Virus record (IMG/VR): IMGVR_UViG_3300049484_000155
Span: 1-22,822 of that record
Source: a virus
DNA length: 22,822 nt
Reading direction: 5' to 3' (one strand)
Shown: positions 350-16,436 of the stretch, piece after piece
Numbering within the stretch: the first letter of the stretch is position 1
Layout of the letters: each line of letters starts with the position of its first letter
Made by a program: the position numbers and the translations under genes
The notes under the pieces: model-generated
The model's input: only the letters and a program-made list of their open reading frames with translations
Databases searched by the model: none
What the model was told of the DNA's origin: nothing

Positions 350-1828
350 CTATCTCCTCAGTAAAAGGTAGAAGTTATGCTTCTTCGCCGCGTCGTGAAT
401 GTGCCGCACCATCCCCGCTTGCTCAAGGGTCGGTACGATCTTCTGGTTGAGCATGTCCGCGTTGACACCGTAACGATAGACGGCCTTCAGCAACTTTGCG
501 TGATCTAGCTTTCCGCCTGCCCGCTGGATCGCGTCGAGCACGGACTCAAACTGCCGTCCTTGATCGGTGGAATCAACGATTGTGAACGCTGACGCCATCG
601 ACTGTTCCGTGTAATCGAGGATGTTGGCGCACCGCTTGAACAAGTCCTCGTCAAGCTCTAGCGGCAGGTCTTCAGCAACGGCCATCACAATCGCCAGCCT
701 AATAAGATGGTCAGGCTTACGCTCGTAGTACCCAGACAGCCGCATCGTGTCGTACGCCTGCGTCTTGAGGTCGCGGTACCACTCGATGTACCACTCCTCC
801 GCTCGTGGTGTCATCGTCGCAACGCCTGAGAACCCCCCAAACTTCACCAACTTCGTCGCAAGTAACGCTTGTAACACCTGGTCAGGAGGCTTCGGTAACG
901 GCGCAAACCTAGGCGTATCCATCTGCATAATGAACAAGATGCGACTAATGGTGCCGCCTAAGAACGCCGACTTAGGGATCGAATGTGCCAAGCCGTCCGG
1001 TGTAATACATCCGAGCAAGTGAACAGAAGGCGACTGCAGAACAAGCTTACCCTTGCTGCGGGTAAGATAATCAAACGGACCATCCCGACAATCAGCAATA
1101 GACGTAAGCAGCTGTATAAGGCCCTCATTATACTCTTGTTTGCCAAGGAACACCCCCAGCTCCGGTGCGAAGATGAAGAGCGTCGGTGACGCCCCGTTGA
1201 CGGAGATGCCGCCACCGGCCTTCGTCGTCACTGTCACCTGCTTGTTCATCGTGTCGAGAATGCCTTCTGGCGTACCCTTTTCATTAAGTATTTCGATGAC
1301 ATTAGCATCTCGCAGAAGCCCAACAGAAATACCCGCAGCGGTGGACTTTTTACACTTGCCGGTTGGAGCCACAAGGACGATATAGTGGTTGGGGTAGACT
1401 CGGTAGTAGCCCTTCTCAAACTTGACACGTCGGCAGAGGCATGCGCCGATGGTGGAGACGGCGCTCCAAAAGTGGAAGAGCAGCGGCGCCTCGTGGTTCT
1501 TTGTGTAGTCAAGATATTCGGCGATCCAGCCCGACTTCGGGAACACCATCTCTCTAAGTGACTCCTCAGTTTCAGCCGGACGCAACGCTCGCTCAAGGAT
1601 GATCGGGTCTTCACAGCCGAGCACGAAAGCGAACTGCCCCGCTGACAACTGCATCTTCTCTCGTATCGTGGTGAAGATTTCATCGCGTTGCGCCTCCGGT
1701 ACAAACTGATAGAAGTTCTTGACGTATTGAATGGTGCTGAGCTTTAGTTCCATCTTCGACCAGTCAATCGACGGGTCGTTGAGCATCTCCTTCAGCTTGT
1801 GGAATTGGTCTTGAATAGAGTCGACCAC
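350..1828 (-). CDS. DUF3987-like P-loop ATPase / putative replicative helicase
   Basis: A 492-residue protein resembling the DUF3987 family of phage and plasmid ATPases, often linked to primase or helicase functions. Visible are a Walker A-like loop at residues 154-163 (APTGKCKKST), a hydrophobic beta strand ending in an acidic residue at 216-224 (TLFIFAPEL) as a Walker B equivalent, and the late family signature around GGTISRILFIM. The start chosen is GTG at 1826-1828, two bases after the stop of the M15 peptidase gene, with GAGGG upstream. A longer reading from 2023 would overlap that peptidase over nearly 200 bases and its extra residues look non-native. Its place beside the polymerase fits DNA replication. 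A helicase role is inferred from family and context. Confidence 0.8.
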   Translation of the reverse strand: MVDSIQDQFHKLKEMLNDPSIDWSKMELKLSTIQYVKNFYQFVPEAQRDEIFTTIREKMQLSAGQFAFVLGCEDPIILERALRPAETEESLREMVFPKSGWIAEYLDYTKNHEAPLLFHFWSAVSTIGACLCRRVKFEKGYYRVYPNHYIVLVAPTGKCKKSTAAGISVGLLRDANVIEILNEKGTPEGILDTMNKQVTVTTKAGGGISVNGASPTLFIFAPELGVFLGKQEYNEGLIQLLTSIADCRDGPFDYLTRSKGKLVLQSPSVHLLGCITPDGLAHSIPKSAFLGGTISRILFIMQMDTPRFAPLPKPPDQVLQALLATKLVKFGGFSGVATMTPRAEEWYIEWYRDLKTQAYDTMRLSGYYERKPDHLIRLAIVMAVAEDLPLELDEDLFKRCANILDYTEQSMASAFTIVDSTDQGRQFESVLDAIQRAGGKLDHAKLLKAVYRYGVNADMLNQKIVPTLEQAGMVRHIHDAAKKHNFYLLLRR

Positions 1829-1830
1829 GG

Positions 1831-2142
1831 CTATTTGCCCTCGTCCAGTGAGTAGTGGTTGCCGTCGTTCCAACGCCCGCCCCACGTACCGCCGATGGAT
1901 TCCCAATAGAGCCCGAGCGGCTGGTGCGACTTCGACGACGTGAGGTAGCGCCCGTCGCGGAAGAGGTTTAGGTCGATCGCTAGGCGCTTGTGGTGGAAAC
2001 TCTTTTCCGCTCCGTAAGGGCAACGTGGATCACGATAGGCGTCACCGAGCGTTACCTCAAACCCCAACTCGTACGCGCGATCAATCAGTGGGGGCACCAT
2101 CCGTGCAAATCTCGACTGCTTCTGCCTCAACGTTTCGGCCAC
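1831..2142 (-). CDS. M15 (VanY/endolysin-type) metallopeptidase
   Basis: A 103-residue single-domain zinc peptidase. The M15 signature S-x-H-x(4)-A-x-D-L is present at residues 48-58 (SFHHKRLAIDL), though its usual glycine is replaced by arginine. The third zinc ligand is probably H96 in DGNHYS. Family members cut peptide bonds in peptidoglycan stems (L-Ala-D-Glu or D-Ala-D-Ala). There is no signal peptide or cell-wall-binding domain, so if it is the lysin it needs another route to the wall. The start is a GTG with GGAGGTGA four bases upstream, overlapping the stop of the preceding gene. The location inside the replication operon rather than with structural genes is unusual. Confidence 0.85.
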   Translation of the reverse strand: MAETLRQKQSRFARMVPPLIDRAYELGFEVTLGDAYRDPRCPYGAEKSFHHKRLAIDLNLFRDGRYLTSSKSHQPLGLYWESIGGTWGGRWNDGNHYSLDEGK

Positions 2143-2145
2143 GGC

Positions 2146-2361
2146 TCACCTCCATTCGTTGATTGCACCACATCCCATGCACACATAGTACGTCTCGCCT
2201 TGCTCTAGATAATCGTACCACGGACGCACCTTAAATCCGCACCTCCGACAAGCTTGCGGTCGCCGTAAATCTTCCGCTTGAGCACGGGCTTCCGTTCTTG
2301 TTTTTTCTTTCCGGGCGGTTTTTTCCGAGGTCTTTTCGAACAGCTCTAGCTGCTCACCCAT
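2146..2361 (-). CDS. Zinc-ribbon protein, unknown function
   Basis: A 71-residue protein with a very basic and acidic helical N-terminus (residues 8-34) followed by a zinc ribbon with C38-x2-C41 and C61-x2-C64. Such small phage proteins may bind nucleic acid or a polymerase partner, but the target is unknown. Its ATG overlaps the stop of the polymerase gene by one base (TGATG), and its own stop lies in the ribosome binding site of the M15 peptidase, so it is translationally coupled on both sides. The ribosome binding site is GAGGGG inside the polymerase C-terminus. Confidence 0.75.
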   Translation of the reverse strand: MGEQLELFEKTSEKTARKEKTRTEARAQAEDLRRPQACRRCGFKVRPWYDYLEQGETYYVCMGCGAINEWR

Positions 2362-3728
2362 CAGAACCCCTCCATTTCACCCCAGCATCGCCCGTGCTTT
2401 ACGTCCATCTTCACTTGCACGTCCTTACCGTTGATCGGGATTGTGTGCTGGAACGCTTCGAGGATTGCTTCACGGGTGCGCTGGCGATCTTCTGTTCGGC
2501 AGACCGTAACCACTTCATCATGGACTTGATTAACGATTTGCACGCCTCGTCGATCAAGGTTGATGAAACCAATGTTGATGAAGTCGGCTCCGGTAGATTG
2601 GATTGGATGGTTGACACTGATACCTCGTATCTTATCCTCAGGCTCGAACAGTGTTCGCAATCGCCCAAAACGGTTTTTGATTGCCCGTGACGAGAGAGCA
2701 GCTGGATAAACAATATTCCGCCAGCTTTCGATCTCGGTGATAAACCCTCGATATGCAGCCATGATCTGCTGCAGTTCGGGCATCGGAATAAGGAGACGCG
2801 ACTCGATAAGTAGCTGACGCTGAATGGTTGGGAGGTCGGCCCAGTAGTTATCCGCGAAAACGAACTTCTTGATAGTGATGTAGCGACGATCTTTGACGGC
2901 TTTGGCATGGAGCGCGTCCTCCCGGCTGACCTTCATCACGTTCATCATGTTGATGATGTGGATGCTCTCACCACGGGCGATCGCGTCGAGCCACGCGCGC
3001 ACCCCCGCTTCGTTTGCGATGATGACCAACTCCAACTGCATAGCGTCGGCCGTCACGAACTCCCACCCCTCAGGCGTGCAGTAGATAGAGCGCATGTCTT
3101 CGGGCAGGTTTTGAAACTCGGGGCCGATACCCCACGGCGTCGTCCACTTACGACTGTGAAGGCGCCCCGTCCTGGTGGTGACGAGGAAGGACGAGCGCAC
3201 GCGGCCGTCGCACCATGCGACAATCGGCCGCAAGAACGTGCCCAAGTCTTTCGTTTCTTCGCGGTAGGTGATAATATCGTTGAAGAGCGATTGCGCCTCA
3301 CTGCCAGCCGTCGCCAAGAGCGCGTTGATGATCTCCTCTTTGTCGGCCTTCAGCGCGCCTTTGTCCGTCATGCGCCCGCTGTGGAAGCCAAACTCCTTCA
3401 ACATCGCGCCAACCTGCGGGTTGCTGTTAGGGTTGAACGGCTCGCCGTCACCCTCCTTGGCGATGATCTTACCGTAAGGCTTAAGCTTCTCGTAGAGCCC
3501 CCGTAGCGCTTCCTGCTTCGACGCTTCGAGCGCGGCTTTGCGCCCAAGGTCGACGGGCATACCGTTCATCTGCATTCGGAAGACGGCTTGCGCTAGCGGC
3601 TGCGTGATGGCATGATAGAAGTCCCACTGCCCAAGGTCCATAAGGTCACGACGGAGTGACTCCCGAACATCGTGCTGCCCCACGACGTCGCGAGAGTTGT
3701 ACGTTCGGAACGTCATGCCGTAGTTCAT
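2361..3728 (-). CDS. Family A DNA polymerase (palm/fingers domain, with the exo III motif at its N-terminus)
   Basis: A 455-residue protein that replicates phage DNA. Polymerase motifs in order: T-x-T-G-R-like TTRTGRLHS (about 184-192), motif A at D228 (ADAMQLEL instead of the usual DYSQIELR), motif B with K287, F291, Y295 and W296, NHPIQSTGAD (373-382), and motif C QVHDEV with H403, D404 and E405. Residues 10-14 (YNSRD) match the exo III motif of the Pol I-type 3'-5' exonuclease, while exo I and II lie in the UDG fusion gene upstream. The enzyme is thus split inside its exonuclease domain. The ATG overlaps the stop of the zinc-ribbon gene by four bases. In motif B the usual glycine after the tyrosine is tryptophan. 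Confidence 0.93.
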   Translation of the reverse strand: MNYGMTFRTYNSRDVVGQHDVRESLRRDLMDLGQWDFYHAITQPLAQAVFRMQMNGMPVDLGRKAALEASKQEALRGLYEKLKPYGKIIAKEGDGEPFNPNSNPQVGAMLKEFGFHSGRMTDKGALKADKEEIINALLATAGSEAQSLFNDIITYREETKDLGTFLRPIVAWCDGRVRSSFLVTTRTGRLHSRKWTTPWGIGPEFQNLPEDMRSIYCTPEGWEFVTADAMQLELVIIANEAGVRAWLDAIARGESIHIINMMNVMKVSREDALHAKAVKDRRYITIKKFVFADNYWADLPTIQRQLLIESRLLIPMPELQQIMAAYRGFITEIESWRNIVYPAALSSRAIKNRFGRLRTLFEPEDKIRGISVNHPIQSTGADFINIGFINLDRRGVQIVNQVHDEVVTVCRTEDRQRTREAILEAFQHTIPINGKDVQVKMDVKHGRCWGEMEGF

Positions 3729-3988
3729 GGCCGCCGCTTCCCTTGGATTTGATCAGCGAGGGCGAAGTACCCAAGCTTACGGAGAATCTCAGGTAGCCCA
3801 TCCACGGGGCCGTCAGCACGAGGATCGTACTTGACGCTCGGCGCGTCGTAGTCCTTATGCGGGCACAGCCCAGGGTTGCCCACCGGAATCTCGTTGTGGC
3901 ACTTAGGGCAGATGAAGTTGATCTCCACGTCGCGCACGACGAACTTGAACTGCTTACGAAAGTCTTCCCATCGGGTCGGTGGCGTCAC
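3725..3988 (-). CDS. Zinc-finger-like protein inserted between the two polymerase/exonuclease halves
   Basis: An 87-residue protein with C27-x2-C30 (ICPKC) and C42-x-H44 (LCPH), a plausible zinc site. The rest is hydrophilic, with a helical C-terminus. It starts at GTG, overlapping the stop of the UDG-exonuclease gene by four bases (GTGA), with GGAGGAGGTT upstream. It ends with a four-base ATGA overlap with the polymerase. The three genes are therefore a translationally coupled set. It lies exactly between exonuclease motifs II and III, so it may help join or regulate the split enzyme. That role is inference, and I do not recognise the family. Confidence 0.75.
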   Translation of the reverse strand: MTPPTRWEDFRKQFKFVVRDVEINFICPKCHNEIPVGNPGLCPHKDYDAPSVKYDPRADGPVDGLPEILRKLGYFALADQIQGKRRP

Positions 3989-5028
3989 TTGTCAACCTCC
4001 TCCATCTCCTCAGACCAGTCAGGTGCGAGGCTCTTCCACTCAGGGCGATCTGAATGCACAGAGCCCAAGAAGCGCAAGTTGTGCGGCAACGACGGATACG
4101 CCAGTGCGTGCATCGCGTGAGTGTCGTACCACTCACCGCCCAACTCAAAGCCGTATTGTGTAAGCCAGAATCGTTCGTGCTGCTCGTATTGCACGTTCTT
4201 GGGCACGTCGGGCGCAGCCAGCAGACGGTAGATTGCTCGTATCACGCGCAGCTCATCCTCGTCCGTCTTCCAGTAGCGAGTGCCATCGTCGTTCACGAAC
4301 GGCACGCACATCGCATACGACATGAAGCCGAAGCCGAATAGCACGAGCTGTCCGCCAGGATTCTCAATGTCAACGGTGACCACCACCTTGGCGGCAATCA
4401 GCGTCTCGACCGCAAGCTCCACGTCAAGCGGCAAGGTGGGCACTTGGAATTCTTCCTTCGGCCGCTCGTACCCGCCGCTCGCGAATCGGAACGCCTTCTT
4501 GAGGTCGGCCACGACGACGTTCCACATGGTGCGGTCGCGCATTAGCGCCGCAGGGTGGATCGTCGGCAGCACCAGAAACTTATGGATCGGGTCGGTGTAC
4601 GGATAACCCCGATAGGAGTAGATGCCAGCGCCCGGCGAGCCTCGTCGTGTGATGATCCAGTTGGCAGAGTTGCCTAAGGGAATGACGACCTTCAGCGAGG
4701 GCATCTCACTCAGTTCAGGTAGCAAGAAGGTCTCGCTACAGTGTTCGATTGCAGCCGCCGCGTGTTCGTAGGAGCCCATATCGTTGTTGGGCACCTGACA
4801 CCGTACTGTGTTACGGATGAGGCAGGAATCGCGGTCGAAGCCCGCCTTGCGCGTCAGGGTGTAGAGGGTGCGGCCTGCGCCGCCTGTGAATGGTCGTCCG
4901 CTCATAATCTCGTCGCTTGCGGGGGCTTCACCTACGAAGGCGATCTCGGCCATCGGGGGGCCTGACCCTGTAACGGGGCCAGGTGCGTGATAGAGGGGGC
5001 AGCCTTCACACTCACTCGGCTTCGGCAT
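3985..5028 (-). CDS. Family 4-like uracil-DNA glycosylase fused to an N-terminal part of a 3'-5' exonuclease
   Basis: A 347-residue fusion. Residues 1-180 are a Fe-S uracil-DNA glycosylase: cysteines C7, C10, C77 and C97 as cluster ligands, GEAP at 33-36 and IHPAAL at 157-162. This enzyme removes uracil from DNA. Residues 200-347 resemble the Pol I-type exonuclease: exo I DIE (220-222), exo II NVQYE (278-282, with Glu where Asp is usual) and the conserved YDTHAM...HNLRFLGS segment. The exo III motif is missing here and appears at the start of the polymerase gene. The ATG has GAGGAG seven bases upstream. The gene overlaps its upstream neighbour by 17 bases and the zinc-ribbon gene downstream by four. 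Confidence 0.88.
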   Translation of the reverse strand: MPKPSECEGCPLYHAPGPVTGSGPPMAEIAFVGEAPASDEIMSGRPFTGGAGRTLYTLTRKAGFDRDSCLIRNTVRCQVPNNDMGSYEHAAAAIEHCSETFLLPELSEMPSLKVVIPLGNSANWIITRRGSPGAGIYSYRGYPYTDPIHKFLVLPTIHPAALMRDRTMWNVVVADLKKAFRFASGGYERPKEEFQVPTLPLDVELAVETLIAAKVVVTVDIENPGGQLVLFGFGFMSYAMCVPFVNDDGTRYWKTDEDELRVIRAIYRLLAAPDVPKNVQYEQHERFWLTQYGFELGGEWYDTHAMHALAYPSLPHNLRFLGSVHSDRPEWKSLAPDWSEEMEEVDK

Positions 5029-5332
5029 TTAAGAACTCCTCGACCGAATAGAACACTTTCAGTCCGCGAGCCTTCGCCATCTCGACTTCCATGTCTGCGC
5101 CGTGGCTTTCTCCCTCAAGCCGAATGAGAGCATCGCACACGGCGAGCCATTCGTTGTCTTGGCAGAGCCAGAATTCGTACTCGTGAGGAAACATCATGTG
5201 CCAAAAGTGGGTAAGAAGCGGGACGAAAGGAAAGTGTCCCGCTTCGGCAACGCGGTTAGCTGCTTCGATGGAGCGACGAACGTTTATGGCAACGTCGCCG
5301 ATGGTGTATGGACTAGCGATGTAAACTCTCAT
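5012..5332 (-). CDS. Nucleoside 2-deoxyribosyltransferase-like protein (DUF4406 type)
   Basis: A 106-residue cytosolic enzyme. The N-terminus YIASPYT, the segment VRRSIEAANRVAEAGHFPFV, and the late GESHGADMEVEMA match the DUF4406 / deoxyribosyltransferase-like fold. E82 in GADME is the likely nucleophile. Family members exchange bases on deoxyribonucleosides or cleave the glycosidic bond, so it may adjust the nucleotide pool for phage replication. The exact substrate cannot be told. The ATG overlaps the stop of the upstream coiled-coil gene by four bases, and the gene runs 17 bases into the UDG gene. Confidence 0.82.
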   Translation of the reverse strand: MRVYIASPYTIGDVAINVRRSIEAANRVAEAGHFPFVPLLTHFWHMMFPHEYEFWLCQDNEWLAVCDALIRLEGESHGADMEVEMAKARGLKVFYSVEEFLNAEAE

Positions 5333-6210: not shown

Positions 6211-6351
6211 CTACTTCGTCACACCAAGAAAGCTAAGAACGCTCGCCCACAACATCTGCAGCAACGTTTGCGCCGTTGTGCGTGGTCCACGTTGCTCAGC
6301 TCTCCTGAGAGTTTCTATCGCCTGATACCCGGTGATTTCACGGTAGATCAC
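6211..6351 (-). CDS. 46-residue putative small membrane protein
   Basis: A short gene starting at GTG (6349-6351), overlapping the stop of the ParB-methyltransferase gene by four bases (GTGA) and preceded by GGGAGGAG. The N-terminal half is charged (IYREITGYQAIETLRRAEQR). Residues 25-44 (TTAQTLLQMLWASVLSFLGV) are hydrophobic enough for one membrane span. A holin-like or membrane-anchoring role is possible but not shown. After its stop about 35 bases separate it from the next start, a larger gap than usual in this operon. Confidence 0.55.
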   Translation of the reverse strand: MIYREITGYQAIETLRRAEQRGPRTTAQTLLQMLWASVLSFLGVTK

Positions 6352-7631
6352 TTTGGCTCCTCCCATCCAAGAGGTTTGGTGAACACGAGCATGTCACCCG
6401 CGAGCGGTAGGATTTGACGGTTCTCTTTGGCACGCTCAACATGGAACGCCTGCCAGATGGACGTTGGCCACGGTAGCATGATGCGGTCAATGGGCGCCAT
6501 TCCAGTCTCACGGAAGAACGAGTACCACGTGAAGGGCCAGTCCATGAACGGTAGCCCTTCAGGGAGGCGGAATTTCTGCTTCATGATAACAGCACAGACG
6601 ACTCCACCTGGGTCGAGCACGCGCGCCGTGTCGTGCGCCAGCTTCTTCAAGAACTGAAGGAACTCGATGAAGCCGATGGCACCGACGCCATCTTGAGAGT
6701 ACTCCTCGCCCACCATGTTCCAGTACGGTGGATCGAGGAAGACGAGCTGGGGAGGCGAGTCATAGGGCGGGTAGCCCTCCGACATATTCCACTTGAAGAT
6801 GTCGGGTCGGCGTGGGTCGATGTCGCTGGCGAAGCATCGTCGCTTCATTTCACGACAGACATCAATAGTAATGCCACCGCCCGCGAATGGATCGACGACT
6901 GTGTCGCCTTCTTCGGTCCAGTAGTGCACAACATTCTCGACATAATCACCAGGTAGTGATCCAGGATGAGGTTTGCCATACTTTGGGTTGAGTCCGCCGA
7001 AGTACCAGATGTCGTAGACTTTCGGGTTGAAGTCCGACGCCGGCTTTTCAAGCGCGACTGCGAGTTTAAATACTGATTCAACAGACGTAGTCCCTTCGTC
7101 AAGGTGCTTCACCTTTGCGGCGATCATCGGGTTCTTCGCGGCGGCCTCGTGAATCTTCTTCATCTTGTCGTAGGTACGCTCGCTCACGCCGGCAAATTTT
7201 GCGAGCATTTCACGAGTGTCGCCTCGCTCTTCGGCGGGAATCTCGCGGTCGGGTAGGTCGGTGCGCAAGCCTGCGCGGAGAGCCGACCGCAGCGAGAAAA
7301 TCTCTGACAGCCGGTTGGTCTCACGCATGATCTCGGTGAACGTCTTACGGCGATAGCGGTTGAACTCGATCAGCTTTTCTTCGATCAGCACATCGTCTTC
7401 AAACGGCAAGACGTTGCAAGTGATCTCGGTCCAGCCGAGTGCTTGCGCGGCGAGCCAGCGACGGTGCCCGCTGATGATGGTGCCGTCGTCCAGCACTTCG
7501 ATTGGGGTGAGTAGGCCGACTCCGGTCATCGAGCGCTTGAGGTCATCGAACTCCGGCCCGCCCGCTGGCGCGTAGATTTGCGCGTTGAGTGGGTGGGGGT
7601 GCAGCTCGCTCAGCTTACGGGTCTCAGGCAC
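6348..7631 (-). CDS. ParB-like N-terminal domain fused to a DNA methyltransferase
   Basis: A 427-residue fusion. Residues 1-100 are a ParB/Srx-type domain with the SGHRR motif at 54-58. Residues 100-190 are helical with a helix-turn-helix-like ERTYDKMKK. Residues 200-427 are a methyltransferase: HPGSLPG before motif I DPFAGGG (247-253), which binds S-adenosylmethionine, and catalytic motif IV DPPYW (300-304). Motif I precedes IV, the gamma-type order, although motif I itself resembles the N4/N6 beta class. It likely methylates adenine N6 or cytosine N4 in phage DNA, perhaps against host restriction. The target is unknown. The start is a GTG with AAGGAG seven bases upstream, overlapping the vWA gene by eight bases. 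Confidence 0.88.
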   Translation of the reverse strand: MPETRKLSELHPHPLNAQIYAPAGGPEFDDLKRSMTGVGLLTPIEVLDDGTIISGHRRWLAAQALGWTEITCNVLPFEDDVLIEEKLIEFNRYRRKTFTEIMRETNRLSEIFSLRSALRAGLRTDLPDREIPAEERGDTREMLAKFAGVSERTYDKMKKIHEAAAKNPMIAAKVKHLDEGTTSVESVFKLAVALEKPASDFNPKVYDIWYFGGLNPKYGKPHPGSLPGDYVENVVHYWTEEGDTVVDPFAGGGITIDVCREMKRRCFASDIDPRRPDIFKWNMSEGYPPYDSPPQLVFLDPPYWNMVGEEYSQDGVGAIGFIEFLQFLKKLAHDTARVLDPGGVVCAVIMKQKFRLPEGLPFMDWPFTWYSFFRETGMAPIDRIMLPWPTSIWQAFHVERAKENRQILPLAGDMLVFTKPLGWEEPK

Positions 7632-15586: not shown

Positions 15587-15825
15587 TGTCGCTCCTTCTC
15601 GGCCATGACTTGCGATGGCCTGAAGTCCACACCATTCGACAGGATGCCGTATCCCCTTCTCCACCATCTGCGATGCGCCGCTTGATGGATGTACGCCAGG
15701 TGGTCCACGTCCTCCTCCACAGTCGGTCGGTCCATCTCTACCAGTCCCCGCGCCTCGTTGAACGCCGTCAACCGATTGTTCTCCTCTGTGGTAAACGAGC
15801 CGTCATTGTGCCGTGTGCGAGCCAT
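15583..15825 (-). CDS. 80-residue protein, unknown function
   Basis: A hydrophilic protein starting MARTRHNDGSFTTEENNRLT. It contains HLAYIHQAAHRRWWRRGYG with several His and Trp residues and an acidic middle. The ATG at 15823-15825 has AGGAGGCACC directly upstream, and a longer reading to 15870 is inside the Ala-repeat gene. It overlaps the next gene by four bases. No family recognised. Confidence 0.63.
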   Translation of the reverse strand: MARTRHNDGSFTTEENNRLTAFNEARGLVEMDRPTVEEDVDHLAYIHQAAHRRWWRRGYGILSNGVDFRPSQVMAEKERQ

Positions 15826-15833
15826 GGTGCCTC

Positions 15834-16436
15834 CTATGCAAACGCCTCGTTGACCATCTCCTGAAACCACCCGCTATATTTTTCCCATGCGGCAGCCCAT
15901 GCGGCAGCCCATGAGGCATCCCATGAGGCAGCCCGTGCGGCAGACCGTGCGGAAGCCCGTGCGGCATCCAGTGCGGCAGCCCGTGCGGCAGCCCATGCGG
16001 CATCCCGTTCGGAAGCCCGTTCGGAAGCCCGTGCGGCAGACCGTGCGGCATCCAGTGCGGCAGCCCGTTTCGATTCGTCGCCGGTTTCCAGATACTCTCG
16101 GACCACGGACGGTGCGTTCCACAGGTGGATTACGTCTAGGGCACACCGACACGCAAATGCTCGCAGGATGGGGTCGGCGTCTATCCGTTTGTGGATGATG
16201 CGCCGCGTAGCAACATGCTTGTCCGTATCTGCCACGATCTCTCCATCGAGGTCCACGAGGCAGAGGGTGTTTCCCGGTGCGTATTTCAGGGCGTCGAATG
16301 GATGGACCGAAGCATGCAGGCCGCGTTCGCAGAGGATGACCGGCAACTCGCCATCGTACTCCAGCCATTCGCCATCTGGGGGGATGGGTTGTCCGTTACG
16401 TAGGGTGTCCCCAACGAAGTGATAAGCGCGTAACAT
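15834..16436 (-). CDS. DUF7666-like protein with Ala-rich tetrad repeat tail
   Basis: A 200-residue protein. Residues 1-122 form a globular domain (HFVGDTLRNGQPIPPDGEWL, then CERGLHAS, then CALDVIHLWNAPSVVREYLE) that matches my recollection of the DUF7666 family in phages. Residues about 123-182 are a four-residue repeat of the form x-A-A-R or x-A-A-W, encoded by fifteen 12-base units. The tail would be a long alanine-rich helix with Arg or Trp on one face. A short C-terminal segment, EKYSGWFQEMVNEAFA, follows. The ATG has TAGGAGGC six bases upstream. Function is unknown. Confidence 0.75.
   Translation of the reverse strand: MLRAYHFVGDTLRNGQPIPPDGEWLEYDGELPVILCERGLHASVHPFDALKYAPGNTLCLVDLDGEIVADTDKHVATRRIIHKRIDADPILRAFACRCALDVIHLWNAPSVVREYLETGDESKRAAALDAARSAARASERASERDAAWAAARAAALDAARASARSAARAASWDASWAAAWAAAWEKYSGWFQEMVNEAFA
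15889..16068. repeat. Fifteen tandem 12-base units (consensus GCGGCAGCCCGT)
   Basis: Fifteen directly adjacent units of exactly 12 bases, each with zero to four differences from GCGGCAGCCCGT on the plus strand. They encode the Ala-rich tetrads of the DUF7666-like protein. Because the unit is a multiple of three, gain or loss of units would not shift the frame, so copy number may vary among relatives. Confidence 0.92.

Follow-up and report, generated by a model that had tools for sequence, protein, structure and literature searches.

How could a proofreading DNA polymerase work when its exonuclease domain is divided between two genes? The question is raised by a locus on IMGVR_UViG_3300049484_000155, a 22,822-base fragment of an uncultured virus from IMG/VR, analysed over its whole length (hereafter the window) and carrying a large terminase gene, which identifies a tailed phage. 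The original prediction had described here three coupled open reading frames (ORFs), joined by GTGA and ATGA four-base overlaps, and a family A polymerase interrupted within its exonuclease domain. The frames and overlaps were present as described, and gene anatomy and motif alignment bore out the split. We consider it rather probable that the locus represents a natural two-chain complex of uracil-DNA glycosylase (UDG), proofreading exonuclease and polymerase, which would stem from a broken one-chain gene, be held together by docking of the exo III helix, and have a working site in the clade of Caulobacter phage Kuura. The features concerned are:

3985-5028, minus strand: P0001, the UDG-exonuclease (UDG-exo) chain, 347 residues; a family-4-like UDG, then the half of a DEDDy 3'-5' exonuclease that holds exo I and exo II
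4363-4374, minus strand: exo I, VDIE, residues 219-222 of P0001; both carboxylates, D220 and E222, present
4174-4191, minus strand: exo II as aligned to a profile built without the window, QYEQHE, residues 280-285 of P0001
3985-3988, minus strand: GTGA overlap of the UDG-exo stop and the Cys/His ORF start; GGAGG 7 nt before the GTG
3725-3988, minus strand: P0002, the Cys/His ORF, 87 residues, GTG start; C27, C30, H31, C42 and H44
3725-3728, minus strand: ATGA overlap of the Cys/His ORF stop and the polymerase start; AGGGA ~10 nt before the ATG
2361-3728, minus strand: P0003, the polymerase chain, 455 residues; exo III helix, then thumb, palm and fingers of family A
3687-3701, minus strand: exo III, YNSRD, residues 10-14 of P0003, with Y10 and D14
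2514-2525, minus strand: polymerase motif C, VHDE, residues 402-405 of P0003

The outer chains as parts of one polymerase

In the PHROG search, a single profile, phrog_17 (phage DNA polymerase), covered both outer proteins, P0001 at profile positions 479-785 and P0003 at 806-1235. Pfam matched UDG in P0001 (3.2e-19) and DNA_pol_A in P0003 (7.4e-32). The UDG and family A polymerase domains of the phrog_17 kind were thus present, but not on a single polypeptide, as they lie on two ORFs with a third between them. The locus is therefore a two-chain variant and not a one-chain member of phrog_17.

The AlphaFold models had a mean predicted local distance difference test (pLDDT) score of 78 for P0001 and 76 for P0003. 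Residues 187-337 of P0001 superposed on the exonuclease domain of the apicoplast polymerase (apPol, 9qu8_A 50-197; Z 11.7, root-mean-square deviation (rmsd) 3.4, 137 aligned), and residues 4-455 of P0003 on 9qu8_A 196-627 (Z 30.6, rmsd 3.7, 406 aligned). Since these parts adjoin, the chains tile one polymerase, cut just before the exo III helix. P0003 (1-451) also matched the Klenow fragment (1kfd 480-926; Z 32.4, rmsd 4.5, 368 aligned). In a 21-row polymerase alignment there were 21 invariant columns, including Y10 and D14 of exo III, D228 of motif A, K287 and D404.

For the glycosylase, the closest fold was that of family 4 (1ui1; Z 17.3, rmsd 2.5, 158 aligned). UdgX entries came within 1 Z of 1ui1, so that the fold alone cannot separate family 4 from UdgX for P0001. 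The chain has C7, C10, C77 and C97, for which an iron-sulfur cluster is predicted, GEAPASDE at 33 and HPA at 158. Family 4 UDGs are marked by four cluster cysteines with GExP and HP motifs, and P0001 has both these and the fold. By eye, the glycosylases of three Kuura-type relatives (L005:2977-4086, L016:5821-6987 and L017:5974-7140) lack the cluster cysteines kept in the window. Against the glycosylase-exonuclease part of the phiLo polymerase (9qhs_A 34-344), P0001 11-303 gave Z 13.3 with an rmsd of 15.5 over 260 residues, meaning that the two domains must differ in their relative orientation.

An intron, a split intein or ribosomal frameshifting might yield a continuous protein after all, and other phage polymerases are known to be interrupted by introns and split inteins (PMC3517423, PMC6892783). 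For this locus we hold such restoration to be very improbable. The Rfam scan of 2300-5100 gave no match even at E<=1, and at Rfam gathering scores no intron was found in the window and seven relatives. None of the three window proteins matched a homing endonuclease or intein family in Pfam. Purine-rich ribosome binding sites precede both inner starts, the GTG of the Cys/His ORF and the ATG of the polymerase, and four-base gene overlaps in two relatives (L035, L043) leave no room for an insertion. The empty scans for intron RNA, inteins and homing endonucleases at the break speak against a polymerase split by an intron or intein.

Relatives with the same break

Kuura and 26 IMG/VR contigs break at the same place, between exo II and exo III, giving 27 rows. 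These include the near-copies L036/L037, L047/L048, L049/L050 and L016/L017, so that they represent about 23 distinct lineages. An IMG/VR scan with the first chain of Kuura returned three contigs. A scan with a three-row alignment returned 37 loci, of which 26 had the same split (two of these, L027 and L028, being contigs already counted as L017 and L016), two were split in the palm, seven were one-chain polymerases without UDG and two were cut by the contig end. Dropped before the counts were L001 and L010 (the window itself), L027-L029 (the contigs of L016-L018), L008 (UDG alone), L058, and L018 and L034, whose contigs run out inside the UDG-exo gene or shortly behind it. The residue counts exclude L025 and L026, and both trees and counts exclude L064-L065; in L039 and L051 the polymerase is cut by the contig end.

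All 27 rows carried the exo I Asp and Glu and the exo II Asn and Asp on the first chain, and the exo III Tyr and Asp on the second. With 27 other phages having the same split and intact motifs, chance is excluded as the source of the observation. Whole UDG-exo genes of close pairs had dN/dS values of 0.019-0.217 (six of six comparisons) and whole polymerase genes of 0.021-0.220 (five of six; dS was saturated for L016/L030), signifying purifying selection on both. Over the short N-terminal part of the polymerase (47-54 codons), dN was lower than dS in the five pairs where dS was computable.

The two chains might also never meet, in which case the exo III segment of the polymerase would merely cap the thumb structurally and the UDG-exo protein would work alone. 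The complex of the two chains is a putative one, and phages LUZ24 and phiEco32 do have their exonuclease as a separate subunit (PMC3517423). Those subunits, LUZ24 gp25 and phiEco32 gp74, each carry all three motifs on the exonuclease gene, whereas 27/27 relatives have exo III on the other chain, with its Tyr and Asp invariant, which a mere cap would not need. We regard this explanation as improbable.

The polymerases of the split clade (L005:4699-6381 and the other 26) share a new N-terminal stretch before exo III, often M-x-I-I-x-T-A, which is a candidate docking segment. Most of their UDG-exo chains end in a short basic-acidic tail.

Exonuclease motifs in the window

DEDDy exonucleases have DxE at exo I, Asn and Asp at exo II, and YxxxD at exo III. 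The exo I and exo III residues are named in PMC9629493. The original prediction had placed exo I (DIE) at the end of the glycosylase fusion and exo III at YNSRD. Both assignments held: VDIE lies at 219-222 of P0001, and YNSRD aligned onto the exo III of the relatives. Its exo II, NVQYE (residues 278-282; 4183-4197), is probably misplaced, as QYEQHE aligns better to the QNxx(Y/F)D of the relatives, with Tyr at the Asn position and Glu at the catalytic Asp. This placement agrees with an ungapped fit to Kuura and with the length of the following helix. Eight residues separate the final Glu of QYEQHE from the next Gly, and eight to nine do so in those relatives in which they were counted by eye. 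Placing exo II at NVQYE would require compensating gaps on both sides. One MAFFT run did align NVQYE as exo II, and Glu replaces Asp in that alignment too.

The exo II Asp was kept in 131 of 132 comparison rows (79/80 loci of the sister clade described below, 27/27 split relatives and 25/25 others); the single exception was a sister locus with Glu at this position. This sets the window apart. It has the exo I (D220, E222 in P0001) and exo III (Y10, D14 in P0003) residues of a DEDDy exonuclease and lacks those of exo II. As Asn is replaced by Tyr and Asp by Glu, we did not file the window protein as an active exonuclease.

Together with the split, these changes raise the possibility that the window exonuclease is dead or dying, that proofreading has been lost with the polymerase working without it, and that the first chain is only a glycosylase and DNA-binding protein. 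Inactivated exonuclease domains are known from other phage family A polymerases (divPolA1, PMC11348598). Exo I and exo III are intact in the window, Glu is still a carboxylate and is shared at exo II with one of the 80 sister loci, and the exonuclease half is well folded in the model, with a block pLDDT of 84-96 over residues 191-280. We judge loss of proofreading to be possible but rather unlikely.

One-chain homologues and other breaks

The original prediction had called for a search for one-chain UDG-exonuclease-polymerase homologues, and these were found in named phages: vir526, ctMlz233, ctfzr933, Mel-JY34, PMBT14, a Desulfofustis phage and phiLo. From the sister clade we kept 80 of 126 matched loci and classified all 80, some of them cut by contig ends. 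None of the 80 had a break between exo II and exo III. Seven broke in the palm (L110, L111, L116, L138-L140 and L143), two between UDG and exonuclease (L123 and L144, with the UDG frame ~240 bases before the exonuclease-polymerase frame) and one near the end of the UDG (L137); the remainder were one-chain or truncated at a contig end.

The palm break, just before motif A, recurs in the same family. We saw it in L054, L056, L014, L015 and L019 as well as in the seven sister loci, with or without an intervening gene, similar to the OM43 phage MEP401. The one-chain frames of L118-L121 and L124 were ~850 bases longer than usual due to an in-frame insert, perhaps an intein.

Origin of the break

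The polymerase tree (55 rows) placed all 27 split rows on one side of a branch with a support of 100/100. The window joined ctLwi270 outside this clade (94/90), both on long branches, and forcing it into the split clade was rejected (approximately unbiased (AU) test, p 0.0036). The 27 rows also grouped together in the UDG-exo tree (42 rows; 100/99), with the window outside. The N-terminal extension before exo III has, by eye, ~20-35 residues in the Kuura-type polymerases versus nine in the window, an anatomical difference that supports two origins. The break in the window probably arose independently of that in the Kuura-type clade.

Content of the gap

The GC content of the Cys/His ORF by codon position (0.65/0.41/0.72) resembles that of its neighbours (0.61/0.45/0.74 and 0.58/0.40/0.71), so that the ORF has the look of a real gene. 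It had only weak Pfam and PHROG matches, the Pfam ones below the curated cut-off, and a search of 50,697 phage records at E<=1 returned nothing for P0002.

The content of the gap varied in the relatives. In L043 the two genes meet in an ATGA overlap of the UDG-exo TGA and the polymerase ATG, with no gene between, and the gene coordinates of L035 indicate a direct ATGA overlap too. L041 had a gap of 56 nt between the two genes. In other split loci, one to several ORFs filled up to 1.8 kb between the halves. A gene of the deoxyribosyltransferase kind (DUF1937/DUF4406/DUF7768) was found there in at least 13 of the 27 split relatives, a lower bound as the intervening ORFs were chosen by hand for Pfam. 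Others were a dCTP deaminase-like gene (L052), MazG (L045) and ORFs of unknown function, and Kuura has two small ORFs between the UDG-exo gene and the polymerase.

Since the intervening genes differ or are missing elsewhere, we read the Cys/His ORF as a probable passenger of a tolerant site. The special role that had been proposed for the zinc-finger gene found no support, the gap content varying by lineage and L035 and L043 having no gene there. A zinc finger as third subunit is unlikely, as the intervening gene is not conserved and P0002 is without a match in that set of phage records at E<=1.

Proposed two-chain enzyme

We propose that a one-chain phage UDG-exonuclease-polymerase gene came apart at the loop joining the exo II and exo III helices, and that two proteins would then be made from one operon. 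The polymerase chain would retain the exo III helix at its N-terminus, and this helix would dock onto the UDG-exo chain, complete the exonuclease fold and tie the chains together. In the Kuura-type clade this would give a composite proofreading site, to which one chain contributes DxE and D and the other chain Y and D. Carried on the exonuclease chain, the glycosylase would be tethered to the polymerase near the primer end. There it could strip uracil from new DNA, and the exonuclease or repair would then act on the abasic end. Genes that later landed in the gap, as the Cys/His ORF in the window, would be passengers.

Both the assembly and the composite site are likely in the Kuura-type clade, and assembly of the chains is likely in the window. 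Whether the composite site of the window is an active exonuclease is uncertain, with two exo II residues changed. Of the working proofreading domain that was predicted to be assembled from two chains, the division stands, as the motifs are divided and two chains are needed; the claim that it works is weakened for the window, which is without the exo II Asp and Asn. The coupling of uracil removal to proofreading, which had been attributed to the glycosylase tie, is plausible, and would belong to the whole UDG-exonuclease-polymerase family and not to the split. We give about even chances to a stricter form of the proposal, in which the clade of uncultured phages and Kuura has a proofreading site that is shared by two polypeptides and present solely when these are assembled, the loop between exo II and exo III having been broken independently at least twice, once in the window.

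Gene anatomy, single-chain folds, conservation, the tree and purifying selection in the relatives are direct observations; from them we infer the docking, the activity and the role of the glycosylase in proofreading. Several points weigh against the proposal. The window exo II has neither the Asn nor the Asp, unlike that of 27/27 split relatives. An independent origin leans on the polymerase tree with its long branches, and the UDG-exo tree does not reject a single clade (p 0.112). The polymerase N-terminus of L036/L037 (52 codons) had five replacement versus four silent differences. No close relative of the window came to light: searches of viral contigs with P0003, P0001 and the A8 alignment returned no relative. 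All 27 split relatives have a UDG-exo partner, but the loci were fetched with that partner, so that this is partly by construction. The same applies to polymerases that start at the same place without an exonuclease partner, named in the original prediction as a finding that would speak against it: none occurred among the 27, but this count is not independent, as the loci were fetched by the UDG-exo chain.

Viral-contig searches with alignments A2 and A3 gave distant relatives only, L064 being one-chain and L065 cut, and genome contigs searched with alignment A4 gave no relative. MT835881 (H2, L025) is an ordinary bacterial polA locus and served only as a far row in the tree, and Moorella MTATph1 has the UDG alone.

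If the proposal is true, Kuura would be a natural, cultivable example of a replicative polymerase with an active site assembled in trans. It would allow a direct test of whether the binding of a second protein can add or remove the proofreading of a polymerase, and would offer a ready-made two-part polymerase with an attached glycosylase. With a detachable editing chain, proofreading and uracil editing could be switched or swapped between polymerases.

Genomic context

The neighbouring features were as follows:

350-2023, minus strand: DUF3987 primase/helicase, downstream of the polymerase; start codon uncertain
2146-2361, minus strand: ORF of 71 residues with CxxC...CxxC, small and zinc-ribbon-like, directly after the polymerase stop
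5012-5332, minus strand: nucleoside 2-deoxyribosyltransferase-like gene (DUF7768/DUF4406), just upstream of the UDG-exo gene with a 17 nt overlap
6348-7631, minus strand: ParB-methyltransferase fusion, upstream; a replication neighbourhood like that of the relatives

The 71-residue ORF had no match in the PHROG search at E<=0.001. At 15803-16436 of the window, overlapping frames run across a short-period repeat, one of them rich in Ala, Arg and Ser, another with PHGLPHG repeats.

Comparison with known systems

UDG-exonuclease-polymerase fusions, separate exonuclease subunits and split polymerases are already in print. In PaBG, polymerase I (gp205) has UDG, 3'-5' exonuclease and polymerase in one chain (PMC7412058). 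This protein and those of the Thermus phage phiLo (9qhs), Mel-JY34, vir526 and ctMlz233 have the same three domains in the same order as the window, and the vir526 polymerase is itself annotated as phrog_17. The enzyme of the window differs in that it has two chains and is broken within the exonuclease domain. Phages of the LUZ24 group and phiEco32 have separate exonuclease genes (PMC3517423). Similar to the window, exonuclease and family A polymerase lie on separate genes there, but in LUZ24 gp25 and phiEco32 gp74 exo I, II and III are all on one gene and the cut is at the domain boundary, whereas in the window the motifs are divided, with exo III on the polymerase gene.

In the OM43 phages MEP401 and MEP402, the family A polymerase is split by a small ORF (PMC10580990). 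They and Vibrio phage VS-ABTNL-3 resemble the window in the interruption by a small unrelated gene; their break is in the palm before motif A, and that of the window in the exonuclease. The nearest named relative, ctLwi270 (MW202554), also encodes UDG-exo and polymerase separately, and a small zinc-ribbon (NrdR-like) frame lies between the two genes, but the break in ctLwi270 comes after exo III, leaving all three motifs on the first chain, whereas the window breaks before exo III. ExnV1, a stand-alone polA-type exonuclease from a virus metagenome, which its authors think is a truncated gene (PMC9629493), has the exo III residues itself, in contrast to the first chain of the window. The accessible part of the Kuura paper mentions only the identification of a DNA polymerase (PMC9959647), and that of a paper on Paenibacillus larvae phages has a table with two polymerase entries as separate gene products (PMC6070908).

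We found no break inside the exonuclease domain in the open-access papers searched. New with respect to this literature is an exonuclease-domain break that is fixed across a deep clade, with all examined catalytic residues kept over both chains. The split is more general than the window alone, and Kuura is the best system in which to study it.

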